A stretch of DNA of 13,018 nucleotides, taken from contig JAGLIP010000009.1 in NCBI GenBank assembly GCA_023142905.1, forward strand, positions 1 to 13,018, in the 5' to 3' direction. The notes beneath the pieces are model-generated. The model ran no database searches, was not told where the DNA came from, and was given only the letters and a program-made list of their open reading frames with translations. Shown one piece after another: positions 5,206 through 9,306 of this stretch (positions are counted from its first letter, which is position 1; each line of letters begins with the position of its first letter). Source of the DNA: Candidatus Aenigmatarchaeota archaeon (GTDB taxonomy: Archaea; EX4484-52; B79-G9). The translations under genes and the position numbers were made by a program.

Positions 5206-5289
5206 CCAAGAGATAAATTATTGTTATCCTGTTATTTTATAAATGTTGCTTTTTTGGCAGATATTCATATTAACTTCATGCGTGAACTT

Positions 5290-5850
5290 ATGAGATGTTT
5301 TGTTGCTATTGATATAAAAAAAGAACTATTGTGTTTGATAGACTACATACAAAAAGAACTTCGTGAAGTTGATGGGCGCTTTTCTTTTATTTTGCCAGAA
5401 ACCACCCACATAACCCTTAGGTTTCTGGGCGAGACAGATGATAAAACTTTGCGTGAAGTTACAACACAGTTGCGTGAAGTTGTTAAAAAACATCGGCCAT
5501 TTGAATTAAATACAACGAATGTTGGTGTTTTTCAAAGAAATGGTATTGCGCATATAATTTGGTTGGGTGTGGAATTAAAAACAGAATTACAAACCCTTGT
5601 TAAAGACATTTCGAATATAAAACCGGAAGATGTTAGTGTTTTTAATAAGTTCACGCCACACATAACACTTGCCCGTGTGAAGTATGTGAATGATTCTCGT
5701 GAACTTAATAAGACTATTTCCGCTATGGGCAGAATACAAACAAAAAGCATACAGGTCAATGAAATAAAGATAAAAAAAAGCACATTAACACAACAAGGAC
5801 CAATATACGAAGATGTAGAATCATTTAAATTGGGTGGTGAGTTTGCGTGA
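5290..5850 (+). CDS. thpR: RNA 2',3'-cyclic phosphodiesterase / 2'-5' RNA ligase family (ThpR)
   Basis: 186-aa member of the 2H phosphoesterase superfamily. Both catalytic HxTx motifs are present: H40-I-T-L43 in PETTHITLRFLGE and H124-I-T-L127 in FTPHITLARVK. ThpR/LigT proteins open RNA 2',3'-cyclic phosphates to 2'-phosphates and can join tRNA halves by a 2'-5' bond in vitro; the cellular role in archaea is unsettled. The start at 5290 gives the family-typical MRCFVAIDI and the usual length, with GTGA 4 nt upstream. ATG 5278 and TTG 5221 are in frame, but the extra residues they add do not resemble the family. The stop overlaps the GTG of the next gene, so the two are translationally coupled. 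Confidence 0.93.
   Translation: MRCFVAIDIKKELLCLIDYIQKELREVDGRFSFILPETTHITLRFLGETDDKTLREVTTQLREVVKKHRPFELNTTNVGVFQRNGIAHIIWLGVELKTELQTLVKDISNIKPEDVSVFNKFTPHITLARVKYVNDSRELNKTISAMGRIQTKSIQVNEIKIKKSTLTQQGPIYEDVESFKLGGEFA
5836..5840 (+). promoter_or_regulatory. Shine-Dalgarno site inside thpR for the OB-fold gene
   Basis: GGTGA (part of GGTGGTGA, 5833-5840) lies 6 nt before GTG 5847, within the last codons of thpR. It supports the GTG start in the GTGA overlap. Confidence 0.65.
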
Positions 5851-6212
5851 ACAAAATCAATGAACAAACCATAAAAAAATTATGTCTCGTTCTTGCTATT
5901 TTTGGCATACTATTAATTTATATCTCTCAAGCAACACAAAACATAACATCCTATAAAATAAAAGACATTGATGAAACCCTTGTTGGTGAAAAAGTAAAGG
6001 TGTGCGGCATCTTGCGTGAACAAAAAGAAAGTTCTGGTGGCACATATTTTGTAAAACTCTATGACGACAAAAGCATTGATGTTGTCTTTTTTAAAAACAA
6101 TGTGTTCAATATTTATGATTTTGATCTAGGAGATGTCGTGTGTGTAACCGGCAGAATAAAAAAATACAATGGATTTTTAGAGCTTATAGGTGAGGGTGTG
6201 CAACGCGTGTAA
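5847..6212 (+). CDS. Membrane-anchored OB-fold protein
   Basis: A 121-aa protein that starts on GTG in a GTGA overlap with the thpR stop. Residues about 11-27 are one hydrophobic helix (LCLVLAIFGILLIYI), preceded by lysines, so the protein is probably held in the membrane by its N-terminus. Residues about 46-118 form a single OB fold of the tRNA_anti type: GEKVKVCGILREQ, YFVKLYDD, SIDVVFF, DLGDVVCVTGRIKKYNGFLEL. Such folds usually bind nucleic acid but can bind other ligands. With one N-terminal anchor after a short lysine-containing segment, the positive-inside rule does not firmly settle which side the OB domain faces. Coupling to thpR hints at an RNA-related task; this is inference only. 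Confidence 0.8.
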   Translation: MNKINEQTIKKLCLVLAIFGILLIYISQATQNITSYKIKDIDETLVGEKVKVCGILREQKESSGGTYFVKLYDDKSIDVVFFKNNVFNIYDFDLGDVVCVTGRIKKYNGFLELIGEGVQRV

Positions 6213-6221: not shown

Positions 6222-7919
6222 TTAATGATGTTTCACGCGAACCGCAACACCAGTATTAAAATCATCCATCTCTTTTTCATTCATTAGTGCTGTTCCGCAT
6301 GAAAGTAGTTTATTCTTAGCGTCAACAACAAATACCGAATCACCCGGACGAATATTTTTATCCGCATATTTCACGAATTTTGCAAAAATGTTTTTTCCCA
6401 ACGCGGCAAAATCAGTGACAGAATCGTCAACAACCACACAATATTTTTTCTCAGTTAACACAGTGTGTAGTTTTTTAGCGCCCTGAAACGAAGGCACAAA
6501 TAACCCATCACTTGCACGAATAGTTCCGAGAAGTGTTTTTTCATCCCACACGCGCCTTATTCTTTTTGTCTTTTCAGAGATTTCAACAGTCGTTTTTTTA
6601 GAGAATATTTTTTTTGCGTTTTTTCCGTATTGGTATTGAACAATTGAGGAAATATTATCCATGGGGTCTGTTTTGTGTTTTGGTTTAAAATACCCAGGAA
6701 CAATACTTTGGCCGAAAGGATATGTTGTTTTGAGTGTTGCAGGAATTTTTAATCCCATCCATTGATATTTACGGCTTTTGCTTGTGACTTGCTTTAATTG
6801 TTTTTTCGCACGATATATTTCCGGTCTGTTTTTTGACTCAATGCCGGTGTAAAAAAATGCGCGTTTTTTGTTTGCAGGCTCTTGTTTTTCAAGGTAATTA
6901 TTGTGTTTTTGCAAGGCCTTGTATGCTTCGTATATTTTCGGGTGGGCTCTTGCGCGCATATCAACAAGATCCCATAGCGCGCCTCTTTGTATTGCGTCTT
7001 TTATTGTTCGTATTTCAGAAAATGTTACGAATAAATTGTGTCTTGCAAGATCTGTTTCAGTAATTTCTTTCGGTGTATTTTTGATGCAAATGGGGCATGT
7101 ACATGGAAAATCTTCAATTGTGTTTAAGTCAAGTGTTCCTGTTGGTGTCATATATCTTTTGGATCGGGCAAAAATAGCATATGCTGCAGAATCAAAAACA
7201 TCAATCCCCAAGGCAACAAGAAATGAAAATATCATTGGGTGTCCGCACCCAAATGCGTGTGTTGGTTTTGCTGAAGAGATATGTTTTTTTGTAGAGATGA
7301 TGATATCTACAAGATCTTTGTATCTGTATTGTTCCATTAAGGGTACAATGCCGCCTATTGAAAAAATGTCGGGTTCTGTTTTTGTTACCTCTTTTGCCGC
7401 CTTTTGTCTTAAATCCCTGAAAATACCGCCCTGTACAGGCCCGTTAAGAAGTGCTGTACTACCAATATCGTTTTTTGCCTGCTTTATTCGTGTTATTGTT
7501 GTTTTAAGTTTTTCTGCTGCTGTTTTTCTTGTGTCTGTTGGCAGGGTAAATTCATCCAACGGAGTTATGATATCGGATCCTATTTTTTTTTGAAAATCAA
7601 TGGTTTCTTTTGGCGTGATTCTAACAGAGCCTTTTGAATACATCTGAAATGTTCCGGAATCGGTGTATATCGGACCCCGCCAGCCATAGAATTTATGCAG
7701 GCCCTTGTTTTCTATCTCTTGTCGGTGTTTTGAATTTTTTATAATGTATGCATTTGTGATTAAAAGGTCTGCTTTGAATTTTCGCTTCAATTCTTTAGGG
7801 GTTATTTCCGGTTTATTTGGATTCACCACAATTGCTATTGTCGGGGTCTGTATTTTGTGTTTTTTTATTGACCAACTACCGATTCTTCCTGAAGCATCTC
7901 TTTTTTTGAGTTCGAACAT
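6222..7919 (-). CDS. tgtA: Archaeosine tRNA-guanine transglycosylase (TgtA)
   Basis: Exchanges guanine at tRNA position 15 for preQ0, the first tRNA-level step of archaeosine synthesis; 565 aa, normal for the full-length archaeal enzyme. Catalytic domain: TDSGTFQMY (86-94, with the general-acid/base Asp 87), GPVQGGIF (160-167), SIGGIVP (187-193), GIDVFDS (238-244, probable nucleophile D240), RYMTPTGTLDL, then zinc ligands C273, C275, C278 and H294 in FPCTCPIC and ARHNL. The middle C1/C2 domains follow (TYPFGQS, YQYGKNAKKIF), and a C-terminal PUA domain (about 490-565: FAKFVKYADKNIRPGDSVFVV, then LLSCGTALM) that recognises tRNA. All key residues seem intact; DSGTFQ has Thr where Ser, Ala or Gly is common. 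It is divergent from the RaSEA-ArcS gene, with 52 bp between the chosen ATGs, and apparently shares its TATA box. Confidence 0.96.
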   Translation of the reverse strand: MFELKKRDASGRIGSWSIKKHKIQTPTIAIVVNPNKPEITPKELKRKFKADLLITNAYIIKNSKHRQEIENKGLHKFYGWRGPIYTDSGTFQMYSKGSVRITPKETIDFQKKIGSDIITPLDEFTLPTDTRKTAAEKLKTTITRIKQAKNDIGSTALLNGPVQGGIFRDLRQKAAKEVTKTEPDIFSIGGIVPLMEQYRYKDLVDIIISTKKHISSAKPTHAFGCGHPMIFSFLVALGIDVFDSAAYAIFARSKRYMTPTGTLDLNTIEDFPCTCPICIKNTPKEITETDLARHNLFVTFSEIRTIKDAIQRGALWDLVDMRARAHPKIYEAYKALQKHNNYLEKQEPANKKRAFFYTGIESKNRPEIYRAKKQLKQVTSKSRKYQWMGLKIPATLKTTYPFGQSIVPGYFKPKHKTDPMDNISSIVQYQYGKNAKKIFSKKTTVEISEKTKRIRRVWDEKTLLGTIRASDGLFVPSFQGAKKLHTVLTEKKYCVVVDDSVTDFAALGKNIFAKFVKYADKNIRPGDSVFVVDAKNKLLSCGTALMNEKEMDDFNTGVAVRVKHH

Positions 7920-7943
7920 AGTAAATGTTAGTTTGTGGGTTTC

Positions 7944-7953
7944 TTAAATTTAA
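7944..7953. promoter_or_regulatory. Shared palindromic TATA element between tgtA and the RaSEA-ArcS gene
   Basis: TTAAATTTAA is a perfect 10-bp palindrome. It is about 29 bp from the tgtA ATG (7919) on the minus strand and about 24 bp from ATG 7972 on the plus strand, so it fits leaderless starts in both directions. No other good TATA match lies in this gap. Confidence 0.55.
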
Positions 7954-7971
7954 CACCCCAATATGTCGTTC

Positions 7972-9306
7972 ATGATTAAAAAAACAAAAACAATAATTGT
8001 TGATTCCGGAAGATGTTCCTGGGGGAAATGTATTTTTTGCAGTTTCTCTAAAAAACCGAATACACAAGAAGCATCAGTTGAGCGGCTTAAAAGGGGTCTT
8101 GATTCAGCACTAAAAGAGGATATTTTTGAACTCAAATATCTAAATTCGGGTAGTTTTCTTGACGAAAAACAAATTCCAAAAGAATTTAGAAACTATTTCT
8201 TTGAAAAGTGTAACAGTTCAGGCATTTCTGAAGTCGTTGTTGAATGCCTTCCGGAACATGTAAATAAAAATGTTTTGCGGGATATTAAAAAAAGGTGTAA
8301 AAAAGTGCGCGTAAGTTTTGCTTTAGGCCTTGAAGTTGCTGATGATAAGGTTCTTAAAAAAATAATGAAGAGTTTTGATGTAAAAACATATGAAAAAACA
8401 GTAATTCTTTTGAAAAAATACGGCTTTGGTGTGCGCACATACTTGATGACTAATTTGCCAAATGTTCTTGAGGTAAAAAAAAGTCTTGAAAAATCTGTTG
8501 ATTTTGCGCTCAAGAAGAGCGATTCTGTTGCAATAATAAACACATACCCGTATGGTTATTCTCCGCTTTTTTCAATGTGGGTTGAGCGAAAATGGACTCC
8601 ATTGGATAAAAACGAGTTTTTTGATGTATGTGAAAAATACAAAAATAACAAAAAGGTTGAGCTCTTTTTTGATGATTATTTGACATACCCCAAATTTCCT
8701 GATTTTCTGAAACAAAAAATTGTGGGTGCTACAAGCGAATGCCTTAATCACGCGCACTTTGATGTGTGGCAGGAATATTTTGAAAGATTTTATGTTGTGC
8801 CGTCAATAAAAGAATATGCGCTTTTTCTTCCATGCGCGTTTAGAAAACCATATTCGCGGTCACAAACCCATAAAAAAATACTTGAAAGATTACAGGGGAT
8901 TGCATCATATAAAAAAATACATCAAATAATGATTTCAACGCCGGGAATTATTCCGCGGGACTTTGAGAGCAAATACCCATTTGAATCTTATGACTGGCCT
9001 GAATGGGAAGAGACCGAGAAAATAAAAAAAGAATATATTGAAGTTACAAAAAAAAGAGTAAAAAGATATCTTTTAAAACACCAATACAAAAAGATATTTT
9101 CCTATTTCAAGTCAGAGTCAGAAAGTTTTATAGCACTTAAAGATGCGTGCGCAGAACTCAAAGTGCCGCTTATAACCCTACTGGATGAAAAGATGTATAA
9201 AGAAATAAAACACATGAACAACGGCAAAACACCAAATGCGATTTTAACGCAACGACGGCTTTTGGATTCTTTTGTAAAAGTGTTAAGAAAAAATATTGAT
9301 GATTAA
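7972..9306 (+). CDS. Archaeosine synthase: RaSEA-like radical SAM domain fused to an ArcS core
   Basis: 444 aa. The N-terminal part (about 5-280) is a radical SAM domain of the RaSEA/Elp3-like type: cluster cysteines C15, C20, C23 in GRCSWGKCIFCSF, then LKYLNSGSFLDEKQIP, VVECLPEHV, VSFALGLEVADDKVLKKIMK, GFGVRTYLM and NTYPYGYSPLF. The C-terminal part carries PCAFRKPYSRSQTH (287-300), an exact match to the ArcS-specific motif PCX3KPYX2SX2H, followed by the ArcS core (ISTPGIIPRDFESKYPFESYDW, about 321-342). Known roles: ArcS couples lysine to preQ0-15 in tRNA, and RaSEA cleaves the adduct to archaeosine. A single chain for both is inferred from the motifs. The TGT-like and PUA parts of full ArcS are absent. 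The start at 7972 is chosen for its distance from the TATA palindrome; ATG 7963 is the in-frame alternative. Confidence 0.8.
   Translation: MIKKTKTIIVDSGRCSWGKCIFCSFSKKPNTQEASVERLKRGLDSALKEDIFELKYLNSGSFLDEKQIPKEFRNYFFEKCNSSGISEVVVECLPEHVNKNVLRDIKKRCKKVRVSFALGLEVADDKVLKKIMKSFDVKTYEKTVILLKKYGFGVRTYLMTNLPNVLEVKKSLEKSVDFALKKSDSVAIINTYPYGYSPLFSMWVERKWTPLDKNEFFDVCEKYKNNKKVELFFDDYLTYPKFPDFLKQKIVGATSECLNHAHFDVWQEYFERFYVVPSIKEYALFLPCAFRKPYSRSQTHKKILERLQGIASYKKIHQIMISTPGIIPRDFESKYPFESYDWPEWEETEKIKKEYIEVTKKRVKRYLLKHQYKKIFSYFKSESESFIALKDACAELKVPLITLLDEKMYKEIKHMNNGKTPNAILTQRRLLDSFVKVLRKNIDD

Follow-up and report, generated by a model that had tools for sequence, protein, structure and literature searches.

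A widespread archaeal protein joining a RaSEA-like radical-SAM domain to an ArcS core, a predicted single-chain archaeosine synthase

An open reading frame at 7972..9306 (+) of the 13,018-nt stretch of Aenigmatarchaeota DNA analysed here (the window) encodes a single-chain protein of 444 aa, in which translation, Pfam and NCBIfam recognise a RaSEA-like radical-SAM domain and an ArcS core. We predict that this protein is, most likely, an archaeosine synthase in one chain, and infer both activities, the substrate and the order of the steps. This reading is favoured because of the two domains, the identity of the best-matching families (RaSEA and ArcS), the invariant residues in both halves, the co-evolution and predicted joint fold of the halves, and the linkage to tgtA. 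Further reasons are that no separate copies were found in its own assembly and that the ArcS of Thermococcus kodakarensis works only with RaSEA. The RaSEA/ArcS fusion is a widespread single-chain form and is not peculiar to its own organism.

Domain architecture and family assignment

The RaSEA-like radical-SAM domain occupies about residues 1-240 (7972..8691, +), with a Pfam Radical_SAM match at residues 12-165 (E 1.4e-11, 45.3 bits; cut-off 29.5). The ArcS core occupies residues 259-444 (8746..9303, +), with a match to DUF5591, the Pfam equivalent of this core, at residues 267-388 (E 2.7e-20, 73.2 bits; cut-off 26). The earlier note had described a radical-SAM domain with C15, C20 and C23 followed in frame by an ArcS core, and the translation and both sets of profiles bore this out. 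A start at the alternative in-frame ATG, position 7963, would lengthen the protein by three residues to 447 aa, which is the length of P0002, the closest relative of the window protein among the matches listed. The orthologue at locus L006 is 94% identical to the window protein.

Euryarchaeal ArcS has TGT-like and PUA parts, and there ArcS and RaSEA are two proteins, whereas the fusion consists of the ArcS core only, combined with a shortened RaSEA match. No TGT, C1, C2 or PUA domain was matched by Pfam in the window protein at E <= 1, as the earlier note had anticipated. Pfam recognised no tRNA-binding domain in it either, which counts against archaeosine synthesis.

The top NCBIfam match of the window protein was TIGR01210 (RaSEA; 103.3 bits), below the equivalog cut-off of 212.15. 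It spanned model positions 12-184 of 313, indicating that the remainder of RaSEA is diverged or lacking, a second point against a synthase. For the C-terminal half, the ArcS models NF040592 and NF053620 were the top NCBIfam matches (76.5 and 77.5 bits; cut-offs 440 and 600). The profile check proposed in the earlier note thus returned RaSEA and DUF5591/ArcS as the best families but left the NCBIfam equivalog cut-offs unreached. The protein resembles both families and passes the equivalog threshold of neither, which also speaks against the assignment. In alignment A1, which comprises 93 non-redundant fusions, every member matched RaSEA (93/93) and ArcS NF040592 (93/93) at E <= 1e-10, the likeness being judged by family profiles rather than by direct alignment to canonical euryarchaeal sequences.

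Predicted structure

The AlphaFold model of the entire chain (pLDDT 96.1, pTM 0.92) predicts one confidently folded unit, in line with the fusion proposed earlier. The top PDB matches by sequence were AF0587 (2q07; residues 263-380, E 2e-10), the nearest solved fold of the ArcS core, and a queuine lyase (6p78; residues 4-199, E 5e-4). With VIA-align, the ArcS half of the model likewise resembled AF0587 and the radical-SAM half queuine lyase (top row). Foldseek placed viperins and Elp3 at the top of its radical-SAM list, so that queuine lyase led only in VIA-align, which counts against the synthase assignment. Queuine lyase acts on a 7-deazaguanine and is a free-standing bacterial enzyme with 18% identity; AF0587 aligns without a radical-SAM match, and its entry title gives the function as unknown.

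Conserved residues and selection

The Cx4CxxC motif (C15, C20 and C23; 8014..8040, +), which presumably ligates a [4Fe-4S] cluster, is invariant in the 93 rows of A1. Other first-half invariants include S59, G60, D64, E91, G119, E121, K133, N190 and W208. In the second half, translation gives PCAFRKPYSRSQTH at residues 287-300 (8830..8871, +), an exact fit, as the earlier note had stated, to PCX3KPYX2SX2H, which we take, following its definition, to be the ArcS motif. It is followed by a second conserved ArcS segment, ISTPGIIPRDFESKYPFESYDWPEWEE, at residues 321-347 (8932..9012, +; translation and A1). Within the motif, C288, K292, P293, Y294 and S297 are invariant in A1; further second-half invariants include S322, G325, P328, P336, F337, Y340, W342, E344, E347, R362 and A388.

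Of 121 proteins (the window protein and the 120 listed among 169 relatives), 105 had the exact motif. In a 117-protein alignment, from which four fragments of the 121 had been left out beforehand, the motif His was replaced by Trp in ten and by Phe in one of the 15 rows shown, and Trp also took its place in 7/9 fusions examined in the survey of loci L130-L141. The motif His is therefore not strictly kept in the fusion family, another point against a synthase.

Comparison of the window gene with L006 gave a dN of 0.026 and a dS of 0.17, with dN/dS about 0.15 for the whole gene, 0.11 for the radical-SAM half and 0.26 for the ArcS half; dN was low in each half (0.027 and 0.025). Across 168 fusions, the patristic distances of the two half-trees correlated at 0.70, compared with 0.07 for the largest of 200 shuffles. 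The two halves of the fusion co-evolve.

The tgtA neighbour

A tgtA gene (ArcTGT; 565 aa, TGT + C2 + PUA) lies at 6222..7919 (-), supported by TIGR00432 (492.9 bits; cut-off 350) and by the Pfam domains TGT, TGT_C2 and PUA. It is separated from the fusion by a divergent intergenic region (7920..7971) of 43 or 52 bases, depending on the start codon. Depending on the choice of its start, an M24 peptidase ORF downstream either overlaps the stop codon of the fusion or begins right after it. On the far side of tgtA, between its 3' end and a 2',3'-cyclic phosphodiesterase gene (5221-5850), a small protein with an OB-fold match (Pfam) and an apparently hydrophobic N-terminus is encoded at 5847-6212 (+).

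Among the 34 genomes of the same phylum, 27 had a tgtA match (25 above the cut-off). Such a match was present in 23 of the 25 fusion genomes and missing in 2, and tgtA occurred without the fusion in four genomes that are 57-81% complete. The two genes shared a contig in 18 of the 25 fusion genomes and lay on different contigs in 5. In 17 of these 18 the orientation was divergent, with gaps between the matches of 55-195 bases (nine pairs), 774 bases (one) and 2.4-3.9 kb (seven); the remaining pair lay on the same strand, separated by 41 kb. In the locus survey, tgtA was within the flank at 13 of the 31 loci L006-L036, always divergent and extending to records titled Aenigmatarchaeota and Nanoarchaeota, and at 18/45 loci overall (L006-L036 included). 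This neighbourhood is linkage, not contact. Besides the normal tgtA, G033 has a second TGT-like sequence that is broken into two pieces (G033:C3:31432-32592).

Distribution across archaea

Taxon names here are record titles or source labels. A protein search yielded 169 relatives, and 112 of the 120 listed carry both Pfam domains. Their source names include Nanohaloarchaea, Micrarchaeota, Aenigmarchaeota, Altiarchaeota, Nanoarchaeota, Asgardarchaeia, Methanomethylicia and Culexarchaeum. The fused frame recurred in three more genomes of the same genus (one cut by a contig end). In the phylum as a whole, the fusion was found in 25/34 genomes, 24 with a single frame (some cut by contig ends) and one, G020, with the gene spread across two contigs; a further genome, G015, had a weak radical-SAM match only. 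The seven genomes of the phylum with a completeness of 90% or more and a contamination of 5% or less all carried the fusion (7/7).

Elsewhere, the fusion was found in 15/17 genomes (>=80% complete) of the phylum of the Altarchaeum genome G050 and in 14/156 genomes of any completeness in the phylum of the Nanoarchaeota-titled G055 (12/106 and 14/143 in stricter subsets). The phylum of the Thermoproteales-titled G056 contained at least 9 full fusions, plus G056 itself in two pieces, among 397 genomes; these genomes are >=85% complete and come from a larger group, and candidates per genome were scored in part and matches were counted from a shortened list, making the count a lower bound. The earlier note had placed the fusion "in this organism", which proved too narrow. 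An ArcS-core half alone was absent from the matches listed in the G050-phylum and G055-phylum surveys.

In the source assembly of the window, a fragmented MAG of 218 contigs, the search for a separate arcS called for by the earlier note found no second DUF5591 protein, the fusion being the sole match, and no other RaSEA-grade match, as the second TIGR01210 match (39.7 bits) fell in a different radical-SAM ORF. Because this assembly is about 80% complete, separate arcS and RaSEA genes are missing from the data rather than proven absent. Outside the phylum, second ArcS-core-like matches occur in some fusion genomes, namely a 261-aa DUF5591-like ORF in G049 and matches of 41.1 and 49.7 bits in G308 and G346, and these were counted against the synthase reading. 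In G056, and probably also in G457, the second ArcS-core match lies in a TgtA-like protein. In some TgtA proteins (L115:2563-4215 (-) and G024:C11:59391-59660), the C-terminal part scores weakly as an ArcS core; this suggests that DUF5591 and a TgtA C-terminal domain are akin and that the likeness can mislead arcS counts.

Several further sequences were recorded in these surveys. G024, which carries the fusion, also has a frame of 403 aa that matches DUF5591 below threshold, at 20.7 bits (G024:C11:75404-75745; L063). The fusion genes G047:C123:16538-17797 and G053:C139 are read with one in-frame TGA, possibly through decay or sequencing error. P0197-P0206, two of which bear the name Gemmatimonadota, are TIGR01210-like and about 320-360 aa long; the members looked at, P0197 and P0201, have most of the conserved radical-SAM residues, and P0197 and P0198, unlike the window protein, have a C-terminal CxxC...CxxC pair.

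Related two-gene and split forms

At twelve loci of the G056 phylum (L130-L141), a small ArcS core of 224-254 aa with the full motif is encoded, and at 11 of them a radical-SAM ORF of 240-267 aa adjoins or overlaps it, in fusion-like order in 7 and reversed in 4. For the radical-SAM ORFs of L131, L135 and L141, which were scanned, RaSEA was the only family at E <= 0.001 (46.8-60.6 bits). Like the fusion, these loci comprise two small domains; unlike it, they have separate ORFs, distant sequences and a reversed order in 4/11, and their radical-SAM ORFs deviate at some fusion-invariant positions (e.g., D64 and N190). Trees gave no settled position for the two-gene forms relative to the fusions. 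At L142-L149 in the same phylum, free-standing DUF5591 proteins of 188-214 aa carry the full PCxxxKPYxxSxxH motif, with no RaSEA-like match in the examined locus. With free-standing ArcS cores of about 190-250 aa encoded at these loci, the core may have been minimal already when the fusion captured it, and the compression from a full ArcS envisaged in the earlier note was not borne out.

Split forms were found as well. Residues 207-444 of the fusion have their counterparts in NEQ526 of Nanoarchaeum equitans (P0158, 245 aa) and in P0161 (246 aa), and its N-terminal part in P0162-P0164 (232-236 aa), which end in an insertion in common with the intact fusion P0159. In the half-trees, the split N-halves are sister to P0159 with a support of 1.0 and the C-halves with 0.989. 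These proteins thus resemble the fusion in their relation to P0159 and differ in being split at about residue 206, equivalent to 8587..8589 (+) of the window. Because the break falls within the radical-SAM domain and not between the domains, it points to the splitting of a fused gene. The N-halves found were P0162-P0164, with none matching NEQ526 from N. equitans, and halves were paired by sequence and tree, a pairing that does not establish shared host organisms. Table 1 of PMC3655853 gives ten split proteins of N. equitans, TgtA among them, and NEQ526 is absent from that table. A PUA-less one-chain synthase with internal transfer of the lysine adduct could conceivably be old and standard in DPANN, Altiarchaeota and some other archaea, having later been re-split inside the catalytic barrel in Nanoarchaeum with NEQ526 as an unlisted half, but we put this forward tentatively, as somewhat less probable than not.

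Proposed function and alternative explanations

In the proposed pathway, TgtA, encoded next door, would place preQ0 at tRNA G15; the C-terminal ArcS core would attach lysine to the preQ0 nitrile; and the N-terminal RaSEA-like radical-SAM domain would cleave the lysine adduct via a 5'-deoxyadenosyl radical to give the formamidine of archaeosine. The obligate ArcS-RaSEA complex of Thermococcus would correspond to one chain here, with preQ0-lysine presumably handed between two sites within it. According to passages of PMC11298593, ArcTGT inserts preQ0 and RaSEA then yields archaeosine, and lysine transfer by T. kodakarensis ArcS requires the complex with RaSEA, for which even apo-RaSEA suffices. 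The two family signatures of the fusion thus belong, in T. kodakarensis, to an obligate physical complex. The same passages report that ArcS accepts even the preQ0 nucleoside, with a very high Km of 433 uM for the 5'-phosphorylated form, and that D-arm structure speeds up the T. kodakarensis enzyme. The Thermococcus data make it plausible that the fusion does both steps and that the missing PUA need not abolish catalysis. They do not favour delivery of tRNA to the fusion by TgtA, which the earlier note had suggested and which is a guess: in these passages ArcTGT did not co-purify with the ArcS-RaSEA complex, and the tgtA adjacency is linkage.

Other explanations can be weighed against a single-chain synthase. 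If only one half were catalytic and the other a scaffold or tRNA binder, amidation might be finished by, e.g., QueF-L or Gat-QueC. The aerobically purified apo-RaSEA complex of T. kodakarensis transfers lysine and its ArcS needs RaSEA physically, so that RaSEA is also structural there (passages of PMC11298593), and the loose conservation of the motif His points the same way. A decayed half, however, should lose its invariants, and both halves keep theirs (the three cluster cysteines; C288, K292 and S297) together with a low dN, which makes this explanation improbable. Slightly less probable again is action on another 7-deazaguanine substrate, such as a free base or DNA, instead of preQ0 in tRNA. 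The conserved divergent pairing with tgtA (17/18 one-contig genomes; 13/31 loci) and the presence of tgtA in 23/25 fusion genomes of the phylum argue against it, and a search for a viral relative of the fusion found none, although the protein lacks a PUA domain, its best radical-SAM row in VIA-align is a queuine lyase with the free base queuine in its solved structure, and T. kodakarensis ArcS accepts a nucleoside in the passages cited above. That assembly or annotation joined two genes artificially might be suspected from the fragmentation of the source MAG (218 contigs), but it is refuted, to the point of being negligible, by 24 genomes of the phylum that show one fused frame (the 25th over two contigs) and by many independent records.

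Implications

A literature search, with the main 2010 and 2019 papers outside it, found no description of the fusion, and priority is uncertain. Annotation has partly met it already, as the source labels 'DUF5591 domain-containing protein' and 'archaeosine synthase' indicate. The single-chain archaeosine synthase proposed here would correct that annotation, because the window protein falls below the family cut-offs and its relatives are also labelled radical SAM protein or hypothetical protein. Recurring in many small-genome archaea, the fusion appears to be a genuine, though largely overlooked, variant of a known pathway. By the gene-fusion argument, ArcS and RaSEA would work together as one machine, and the fusion points to which minimal portion of ArcS has been retained. 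Structures of ArcS-RaSEA-tRNA complexes are still needed according to a passage of PMC11298593, and the fusion may offer a small one-chain target for structural and mechanistic work on archaeosine synthesis. It would also provide a route to archaeosine in those archaea for which no gene but the fused one was found.
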